Origin: Candidatus Avelusimicrobium bubulum
GTDB lineage: Bacteria > Elusimicrobiota > Elusimicrobia > Elusimicrobiales > Elusimicrobiaceae
Reading direction: 5' to 3'
Length of the DNA stretch: 41,838 bases
NCBI GenBank assembly: GCA_902798835.1
Contig: CADBYN010000011.1
Location: 1-41,838 of the forward strand
Numbering within the stretch: position 1 is the stretch's first letter; each line of letters opens with the position of its first letter. The notes below the pieces were generated by a model. The model saw nothing but the letters and a program-made list of their open reading frames with translations, had not been told where the DNA came from and searched no databases. Positions 39,038 through 41,012 of the stretch are shown in pieces. The position numbers and the translations under genes are program-made.

Positions 39038-40047
39038 CTTTAATTAAACCCCTTACCATTGGCTCGTTTACCGCGCCGAATAATTTGCTCTTGGCCCCGA
39101 TGGCGGGCATTACCGATACGCCCTTTCGCATTTTATGTCTAAAGGGGGGGGCGGGCATTGTGTGCGCGGAAATGGTTTCGGCGCATGCTTTGCACTACGG
39201 CAATCCCAAAAGCGGGCGGATGTTGCAAGTTGCCAAACAGGAACATCCGATTTCTATGCAAATTTTCGGCTCGGACGAGCAAACTATTACAGAAGCCGCT
39301 AAACAAGCGCAAGCGTGCGGGGCGGATATTATTGATCTTAATGCCGGTTGCCCGGTCAAAAAAATCAATAAAGCCGGGGCCGGGTGTGTGCTGATGAAAG
39401 ACGAGGCCAAGTTGGGGCGTCTAGTTGAGGCGGCTGTTAAAGCGGTCAAAATTCCCGTTACGCTTAAAACGCGTATTGCACTTACTCACAAAGAAATGCT
39501 GGCCGTGCGTATGGCTAAACTCGCGCAAAATGCCGGGGCAAGTGCCATTGTCTTGCACGCCCGCGCCGCGGTAGATGTGCACACAGGCGCGCCTAACATT
39601 GCTGCGGTGGGGGAAGCGTGCGCGGCGGTCAAAATTCCTGTCATTGGCAACGGCGGGGTGGTAAATGCGCAAGTTGCCAAGCAATTTTTAGAGGCAGGTT
39701 GCGCGGGCGTGATGATTGGCCGCGGCGCGGTGGGAAACCCGTTTATTTTTGCCGATATCCAAACGGAGCTGGCAGGGGGGACGACGTCGCCCATGACGGC
39801 TCAAAAACGTCTGGAAATTTACCTGGCGCTTATTCGCGAAAACGTGGCTTATTACGGCGAGCGCATTGGTGTAAACCGTAGCCGCAAAACGGCTGGATAT
39901 TGGATCAACAATTTCCCCAATGCCGCCGAGGTGCGCGGGCAATTTGTCCGCCTGGATAGTTTGGCCGAAATAGAAAAGTTGTTTAATCAAGTGATGAAAA
40001 AACTTACCAAGTTTCCCAATCTTGATAGTTCCATCCTTGACTTCTAA
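39034..40047 (+). CDS. tRNA-dihydrouridine synthase
   Basis: 337 residues from the ATG at 39034, which overlaps the previous stop by four bases; the upstream open frame is shadow. FMN barrel motifs: LAPMAGITDTPFR, AEMVSAHAL, QIFGSDEQ, DLNAGCPVKKI with the catalytic Cys, LKTRIAL, VLHARA, VIGNGGV and MIGRGAVGNP. This is the DusB-like group, which reduces uridines of tRNA with NADPH. The final ~14 residues (from KFPNLDSSILDF back) are encoded antisense to the 3' end of the pilin gene; the family does not need this tail. Confidence 0.93.
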   Translation: MTLIKPLTIGSFTAPNNLLLAPMAGITDTPFRILCLKGGAGIVCAEMVSAHALHYGNPKSGRMLQVAKQEHPISMQIFGSDEQTITEAAKQAQACGADIIDLNAGCPVKKINKAGAGCVLMKDEAKLGRLVEAAVKAVKIPVTLKTRIALTHKEMLAVRMAKLAQNAGASAIVLHARAAVDVHTGAPNIAAVGEACAAVKIPVIGNGGVVNAQVAKQFLEAGCAGVMIGRGAVGNPFIFADIQTELAGGTTSPMTAQKRLEIYLALIRENVAYYGERIGVNRSRKTAGYWINNFPNAAEVRGQFVRLDSLAEIEKLFNQVMKKLTKFPNLDSSILDF

Positions 40048-40609
40048 GGCTATCACAAATATAGCGCCCCATGGTTGTATTTTGTGTAGAGCAATTTTTT
40101 TCTCCTCCCGCAACATATAAATCATACACTACTGCCGGCCATCGAACTATCTCTACACTACAACCGTTAGCCAGGCATACGGGGTAAAAATATAGGAAGT
40201 TATCGCTTACATATTCGCTTTCATTTTCATCCCACAGGCCTAGATTAATTTCAATAGGGCAATTCATCTCTTGTAGAAATACAGGTTGATTCCCCGTAGG
40301 CAATCCGTGTTCCATTTGATACCAGTCAAAACATTCTTGGATGAGTTTGGCGTTTTGCAAGGCCTCGGCTAAGCGGCTTTTTTCTACCGCTCTTTGATAC
40401 TGCGGAAGTGCGATCGCCGCTAAAATGCCAATAATAAGCACCACAACTAACAATTCAATGAGTGTAAAGCCGTGTGTGTTTTTATTGGATAATCCCTGAA
40501 CTTGTTTCAGGGCCTTCGACGCTTGTTGTTGAGTAACGGCATGCGTGGAGGATCCCGAACTAAATTCGGGAATTATACTTTGTGGATTTTTTTCATTTTT
40601 CATTTTCAT
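40004..40609 (-). CDS. Type IV pilin with a 47-residue leader containing a repeat insertion
   Basis: 201 residues. The start at 40609 is supported by AAGGAGA eight bases upstream. The leader runs to Gly47, followed by FTLIELLVVVLIIGILAA. Residues ~12-41 of the leader are encoded by an 88-bp palindromic repeat. The mature part (~154 residues) is clearly paralogous to the pilin encoded at 19726-20214: KAVEKSRLAEALQNAKLIQ, MNCPIEINLG, MGRYICDSLRSQGW, with Cys at CFDWY, MNC, PVCLANGC, KNC and YIC. PilD should still cut before the Phe, leaving the repeat in the discarded leader. The 3' end overlaps dus by 44 nt. A long structured leader RNA precedes it. Confidence 0.9.
   Translation of the reverse strand: MKMKNEKNPQSIIPEFSSGSSTHAVTQQQASKALKQVQGLSNKNTHGFTLIELLVVVLIIGILAAIALPQYQRAVEKSRLAEALQNAKLIQECFDWYQMEHGLPTGNQPVFLQEMNCPIEINLGLWDENESEYVSDNFLYFYPVCLANGCSVEIVRWPAVVYDLYVAGGEKNCSTQNTTMGRYICDSLRSQGWNYQDWETW
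40489..40576 (-). repeat. Bipartite palindromic repeat element read in frame
   Basis: On the minus strand the element begins ATAATTCCC and ends GGGATTAT (terminal inverted repeats, one bulge). It contains two 6-7-bp hairpins: CCCGAA/TTCGGG (40554-40570, loop of 5) and CCCTGAA/TTCAGGG (40494-40512, loop of 5). The translation (PEF-SG-S ... LKQVQG) is the sort produced by dispersed palindromic elements of other bacteria. No second copy was seen in this window. Confidence 0.65.
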
Positions 40610-40841
40610 ATACTCTCCTTAGTTGCGTGTTCAACTTATCTGCCGGGAAAGTATTGTAAAAACGGCTGCCATAAAGAGTCTGTACTAGAGAACCCGATAT
40701 AACAGCCGTAACCCCAAAGGGGTGTTCGGCAATAAACAAAACGCGTTTTGTCTATCACCTGATACGACTGTTAGTGGACTAGTACAATGCCTGTTAGGCA
40801 CTCCGTATTCTGTATACGGTTCCAAGAACAGATAAAATTGT
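40610..40841 (-). ncRNA. Structured leader RNA of the pilin gene, candidate attenuator
   Basis: Read on the minus strand. A closing stem TTATCTG/CAGATAA (40835-40829 with 40642-40636) encloses everything. Inside are hairpins CCGTAT/ATACGG (40819-40803) and TGCCT/AGGCA (40800-40788), a long-range 8-bp helix TGTACTAG/CTAGTACA (40786-40779 with 40688-40681), a nested TAACAG/CTGTTA helix (40773-40768 with 40705-40700), the palindrome 40736-40751 and a GCCG-ACCCC/GGGGT-CGGC hairpin (40730-40705). The right-hand strands of the last two helices are also needed for a terminator (next entry). A small AGTTG/CAACT hairpin (40636-40621) sits just before the Shine-Dalgarno. No known riboswitch class was recognised. 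Confidence 0.55.
40658..40708 (-). terminator. Candidate attenuator terminator in the pilin leader
   Basis: On the minus strand CGGCTGTTATA (40708-40698) pairs with TATGGCAGCCG (40673-40663) over 11 bp including two G-U pairs, followed by TTTTT (40662-40658). It is about 50 nt before the pilin start codon and competes with the upstream helices. Confidence 0.5.
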
Positions 40842-40847
40842 ATTTTC

Positions 40848-40868
40848 ATTATAGCATAAAAATGCTAT
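40848..40868 (-). promoter_or_regulatory. Pilin-leader promoter overlapped by an operator-like inverted repeat
   Basis: On the minus strand TGCTATAAT (40856-40848) is an extended -10; the transcript should begin near 40841, a few bases before the closing stem of the leader. The perfect repeat ATAGCAT-AAAA-ATGCTAT (40851-40868) overlaps the -10 and covers the -35 side, where a repressor could bind. Confidence 0.5.
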
Positions 40869-40928
40869 CATAAAGGGCACCTTATTGCCTTGCTGAAAAT
40901 TACCTTCCACAAACCCTGTAATTTTTTA

Positions 40929-40989
40929 TATAATATATACACACCACGAGTCATTAAATACAGTGGCCACCACTCCACTGTGCATTAAT
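40929..40989 (+). promoter_or_regulatory. rplM promoter and leader hairpin
   Basis: TATAAT at 40929-40934 would give a ~72-nt leader. In it ATTAA-ACAGTGG (40953-40966) pairs with CCACTGT-TTAAT (40975-40989), with an 8-nt loop and a small internal loop. Ribosomal protein L13 is known to regulate its own operon through the mRNA leader in other bacteria. The ribosome site (AAAGG) is weak. Confidence 0.45.
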
Positions 40990-41012
40990 TACAAAAGGTA
41001 GAAATAGAAATT

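Follow-up and report, generated by a model that had tools for sequence, protein, structure and literature searches.

The window, i.e. the whole stretch of 41,838 nucleotides from Candidatus Avelusimicrobium bubulum that was analysed, belongs to a genome of 1.35 Mb (G000) and contains a leader at 40841-40610 of the minus strand, 5' of a pilin gene. The gene (40004-40609, minus strand, ATG at 40609) encodes a type IV pilin-like protein of 201 aa with the N-methylation motif PF07963 (E 1.8e-9). Two ORFs, presumably those of the ribosomal proteins L13 and S9, lie divergent from the leader. Inspection of the sequence found the extended -10 promoter element TGCTATAAT (40848-40856, minus strand) and the pilin ATG where the original prediction had placed them, and a -10-like sequence is also present upstream of many other copies of the RNA family described below. 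The leader folds with a z of -5.06 for 40841-40610 and -6.05 for 40836-40632; in each case 0 of 200 dinucleotide shuffles were as stable. A search for tRNA or tmRNA identity gave none.

All parts of the leader are on the minus strand and are given in the order 5' to 3'. S1, the 5' strand of helix P1 (CTGTTCTTGGA, 40821-40831; family consensus CTGTTTTTGGA), is followed by hairpin P2 (CCGTAT..ATACGG, 40803-40819; supported by covariation), the hairpin region P3 (GTGCCTAACAGGCAT, 40787-40801), the 5' strand of helix K (TTGTACTAG, 40779-40787) and S1', the 3' strand of P1 (TCCACTAACAG, 40768-40778), which overlaps the 5' strand of helix AT (AACAGTCG, 40765-40772). P1 of the window copy is imperfect. 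Next come the hairpins hpA (40728-40759, with the tip palindrome AAAACGCGTTTT at 40749-40738) and hpB (CCCCTTTGGGG, 40712-40722), and a shared strand (40698-40708) that serves as 3' strand of AT and doubles as 5' arm of an intrinsic terminator. The 3' strand of K (CTAGTACA, 40681-40688) lies inside the terminator loop, followed by the terminator 3' arm with a U5 tract (40658-40673). Between terminator and gene, a hairpin of ATACTTTCC (40654-40646) and GGAGAGTAT (40618-40610), together 40610-40654, masks the Shine-Dalgarno sequence (SD).

These strands combine into two folds. The OFF fold consists of P1 and the intrinsic terminator, with the K 5' strand single-stranded; the ON fold consists of K and AT, for which P1 and the terminator each give up one strand, with the K 5' strand paired to 40688-40681. 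The helices on which the original prediction had built its two states are all present, namely TGTACTAG/CTAGTACA (helix K), TAACAG/CTGTTA (helix AT) and the 11-bp helix 40708-40698/40673-40663 followed by five U (the terminator), and the folds do exclude each other, as AT/K and the terminator have 40708-40698 in common. A GCCG...CGGC hairpin had been listed with them; it corresponds to no helix of the family, and its bases fall in hpA (40759-40728) and hpB (40722-40712), within the AT helix. The proposed outer stem of TTATCTG (40835-40829) with CAGATAA (40642-40636) exists as a pairing, but CAGATAA lies 3' of the terminator, so that this stem can form in read-through RNA only.

The leader is one member of a larger family. 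BLASTN detected copies in 19 of 61 genomes, and a first alignment of 30 copies yielded a consensus fold of 54 pairs; for 32 of these, one or more sequences differ on both sides without loss of pairing. A covariance model matched in 62 of the 66 genomes of the window's genus, in two of the six genera of its family and in 95 of 341 genomes of the phylum Elusimicrobiota, belonging to two families. In this 341-genome scan no match was reported for family f2 of the same order, and the model found no copy in genome G029. The GTDB genome collection, scanned with the genus-type 5' sequence, delivered 93 stretches; the matches listed with an organism are Elusimicrobia, and a few are named 'uncultured bacterium'. 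Many contigs with the genus-type sequence were obtained from rumen or faeces, and Candidatus Avelusimicrobium excrementipullorum is among the organisms named. Neither the window leader nor 20 relatives scored above the gathering score of any Rfam 15 model, including the c-di-GMP and T-box classes, and a permissive Rfam search of 40560-41000 gave chance matches only. IMG/VR, phages and plasmids contained no match to the leader, and a search of the open-licence literature on Elusimicrobia riboswitches, pilins or structured RNAs brought up no account of the element. This is apparently an RNA family of about 200 nt that was undescribed until now and has no entry in Rfam. Since the helices of both folds covary across homologous leaders in two families of the phylum and no Rfam class matches, the earlier reading as a two-state leader of no known class stands.

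A fuller search of whole genomes gave 133 matches in genome G069, 94 in G026, 75 in G101, 55 in G109, 54 in G070 and five in the window's own genome. These are upper limits, as some of the matches are antisense echoes of genuine copies. The 737 kb examined of G069 contain 78 sense copies, about one per 9 kb. Roughly, a genome carries up to about a hundred copies.

Evidence for the two folds comes from the comparison of copies. In 30 sequences the OFF helices are 91.9% paired, 41 of 65 pairs are changed on both sides, and covariation is 0.371 as compared to 0.200 in shuffled alignments, with slid controls at 38-48% paired. In 111 copies the values rise to 95.7% paired and 45 of 54 pairs changed on both sides, in an alignment fitted to the model and thereby biased towards it. 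For the ON helices, pairing in the 30 sequences amounts to 91.4% and covariation to 0.500 versus 0.158 shuffled, with slid controls at 26-43%; nearly all of this signal comes from K, AT being changed on one side only. AT taken alone varies little within the genus; compensatory changes in it are seen in a few copies and in the distant relatives. In diverged copies P1, AT and the terminator change together, e.g. in L170 (TATTTGTTGGA/TCCAACAGATA, TAATCGCT/GGCGATTA), in L180 and in the genus variants with CGGCTAT or CGGTTGT. The two states lie close together in energy: constrained folding put ON 4.5 +/- 4.0 kcal/mol above OFF, and ON was the lower of the two in 12 of 97 copies.

The strands of K are free in sequence and matched within each copy. 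Across 97 copies the K duplex has a mean of -15.76 kcal/mol with its own partner and -6.03 kcal/mol with swapped partners, and in 96 of the 97 the own partner is among the best five of 97 loops. The 78 copies of G069 gave -15.66 and -6.01 kcal/mol, respectively, although all 78 K strands differ. In the distant family the values are -12.41 and -5.09 kcal/mol, a conservative mean because automatic parsing misplaced some strands. K could also form a pseudoknot in the OFF state instead of belonging to ON solely.

A pilin gene follows the leader in the window as originally described, but the gene set of the family is wider than pilins. A recognisable pilin motif follows 65 of 97 copies, a minimum since a few more pilin genes are cut by contig ends or frames, and 75 of the 78 copies in G069. 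Other genes behind the leader encode a sulfatase-type membrane protein, a polysaccharide pyruvyl transferase, a DUF4823 lipoprotein, an outer-membrane barrel, RgpF, an EcoRI-type adenine methylase and an N6/N4 methylase. In the distant family, read by eye, a minority of the genes encode pilins, and genes for methylase-like and surface proteins are found repeatedly. The EcoRI-type methylase lies 3' of the leader at locus L079 of the window's family (Pfam E 1.4e-138), and by eye a protein resembling it follows the leader at L167 of the distant family. Pilin N-methylation motifs number at least 150 in G069 (1.7 Mb) and 66 in G000, compared with 8 and 11 in two genomes of family f2.

Pilin copies have a second point of control. 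Their start codon lies a median of 40 nt behind the terminator, and in 50 of 62 the core of the P1 3' strand (AAACAG and variants) is repeated after the terminator. In most pilin copies the repeat stands beside or inside a hairpin that pairs this stretch with the SD or the AUG, e.g. GGTTTCATAAACAG...TTTATGAAAC. Against shuffles, such a mask ranks among the best 5% for 39 of the 62 pilin copies and is not significant for 23, and a complement to S1 ranks among the best 5% for 45 of 62 (chance about 3). The mask counts are taken from a stricter duplex test, used instead of a loose SD/AUG pairing test that did not discriminate, being positive in 63 of 85 copies with a shuffled control of 0.66. The loop of the window's mask holds the CAGATAA mentioned above, and freed S1 would thus open the SD in read-through RNA. 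Together this suggests control at both transcription and translation. Several lipoprotein and sulfatase copies lack an S1 complement after the terminator. Lipoprotein and sulfatase loci (L101, L123, L066, L074 and L099) have in common ATAAGCC..GGCTTAT, an inverted repeat placed around the -10 position that may be an operator; where examined, copies with this repeat have no P1 complement after the terminator.

From these comparisons the leader is very probably a two-state transcription attenuator that acts in cis and carries a second gate at the level of translation, a confidence that applies to the two-state attenuator and not to its input. As in known attenuators, a G+C-rich hairpin and a U run precede the gene, and an alternative helix that uses a terminator strand is kept by covariation. 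The direction of action we infer as follows. By default, in most copies, S1 and S1' would pair as P1 around P2 and P3 and the downstream strand would form the intrinsic terminator. In the ON state AT would form between the P1 3' strand region and the terminator 5' arm, and K between the unpaired strand beside P1 and the terminator loop; hpA and hpB would be enclosed, the terminator blocked, and RNA polymerase would continue into the gene. In the read-through RNA, freed S1 would pair with the second copy of its partner just past the terminator and open the SD/AUG hairpin.

The hpA loop is self-complementary. A palindrome of at least 4 nt is present in 28 of 31 distinct loops across genomes, compared to a mean of 10.5 and a maximum of 17 in 300 shuffles, and one of at least 6 nt in 16 of 31 (shuffled 1.3), with the qualification that these shuffle tests count related copies and loops as independent. 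Most copies in the test come from loci chosen by their S1-P2 pattern, independently of hpA. The control loops of hpB, P2 and P3 show palindromy near the shuffled level. An hpA palindrome occurs in 75 of 78 copies of G069 and in 22 of the 25 distant-family copies that have two hairpins. Recurrent loops are ACTAATTAC, CTGATCC, AACTTATAATC, ACCTTCGAAAC, AAGTCATGAG and TCTCGAGC, and several identical loops occur in both families, on different stems. Within a single genome the hpA loops form a small common set, and K is private to each copy.

Kissing homodimers require a self-complementary loop, and such an apical loop is what hpA offers; its palindrome looks like a putative kissing-loop dimer contact, and it could also have another role. 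Our best guess for the input, tentative as it is and placed before a ligand and then a protein, is that palindromic hpA loops kiss between leader RNAs, e.g. a terminated leader touching a nascent one. Kissing is favoured because, among the strongly selected features, hpA palindromy alone is not needed for the switch itself. Kissing, ligand and protein could also act in combination. An extension of this proposal, which we regard as rather unlikely, is a concentration-sensing network made of RNA only, in which terminated and nascent leaders of the same loop type would pair, private K would keep switches apart, and the outcome would set which pilin groups are made.

A metabolite riboswitch is possible but somewhat doubtful. 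Here a small molecule would bind P1/P2/P3 and favour OFF, or bind the AT/hpA/hpB three-way junction, which exists in ON only, and favour ON, the palindromes being secondary. The layout is that of a typical expression platform, S1 and P2 are strongly conserved in sequence within the genus, and adenines recur at three corners of the junction in both families, which would suit a folded ON core. However, P2 is short and has a GAAA loop in many distant-family copies, J3/1 varies freely provided its partner matches, most of the strong conservation is accounted for by the alternative pairing, and no Rfam riboswitch class matches. As to the ligand, GGDEF proteins in all eight genomes examined make c-di-GMP a candidate signal, but they also occur in G029, where no copy was found; c-di-GMP is a possible but unsupported input.

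It is less probable that a protein binds the leader and selects its fold, as an antiterminator or repressor, e.g. a pilin-assembly or surface-sensing factor. The conserved junction and the reuse before many genes fit a trans-acting regulator, but the hpA tips vary widely in sequence and stay palindromic, and a protein that reads sequence needs no palindromy. The well-known leader-binding regulator CsrA is excluded, since none of the eight genomes examined encodes it (0 of 8, controls positive).

An independent small RNA of about 180 nt that ends at the terminator and acts in trans, with the gene reached by chance read-through, has in its favour the strong and conserved terminator, but is very unlikely: an SD and a start codon lie behind the copies (median 40 nt for pilins), and masking is often coupled to S1. 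The related alternative of the original prediction, in which the outer stem closes a stand-alone RNA, has less support than the switch because the closing partner follows the conserved terminator and adjoins the SD. Action of a terminated leader in trans is in itself compatible with the attenuator and not opposed to it. High copy number, varied cargo including methylases and similar loops in distant families might point to a mobile or recombining DNA cassette with the hpA palindrome as recombination or restriction site and incidental RNA structure, but covariation of alternative helices, the U tract and SD/AUG masking are properties of an RNA, palindromes are confined to the hpA loop (as opposed to hpB, P2 or P3), and phages, plasmids and IMG/VR gave no match, which makes this the most improbable reading.

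Leaders of c-di-GMP class I and II precede pilin genes in other phyla. With these the present family shares the position 5' of the gene, the choice between terminator and antiterminator and the pilin cargo; it differs by the lack of a sequence or Rfam match, another architecture, the palindromic hpA, dozens to about 100 copies per genome and a wider cargo. T-box leaders are likewise long and choose between terminator and antiterminator, but are set apart by the lack of an Rfam match here. For retroviral leaders, two papers describe a dimerisation initiation site and two leader conformations (PMC5874298, PMC2494553); a palindromic loop able to kiss a second copy and a two-conformation leader are the common traits, whereas the present leaders are bacterial, have a transcription terminator and many palindromes per genome, and their dimer is putative, from the loop sequence. 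ROOL, GOLLD and OLE are structured bacterial RNAs that are tied to homo-oligomer formation (PMC12286853); they share this theme, but are large and ornate, compared with about 200 nt, a cis-regulatory position and a terminator here.

In some rumen species the switch precedes a large part of a pilin repertoire of unusual size, and it couples the termination of transcription to the masking of translation within a single fold. Pili, surface polysaccharide, outer-membrane proteins and DNA methylases are often phase-varied in other bacteria, so the switch may represent another way in which uncultured gut bacteria vary their surface. The self-complementary loops offer a direct way to test whether regulatory RNAs sense each other; if the network proposed above were true, dozens of pilin genes within a cell would communicate through their leaders, and surface genes would be chosen by RNA alone.

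At L167 of the distant family (1268-1693) two leaders stand in tandem at one locus. The prepilin leader peptide of the window contains an in-frame palindromic repeat at 40547-40573 of the minus strand (ATTCCCGAATTTAGTTCGGGATCCTCC), and the relatives L003, L086, L114, L122 and L139 carry, 3' of the leader, the in-frame palindromic repeat CATCCTGAACTTGATTCAGGATCTTC. To judge from its sequence, the prepilin repeat resembles a small mobile palindrome between start codon and N-methylation motif.
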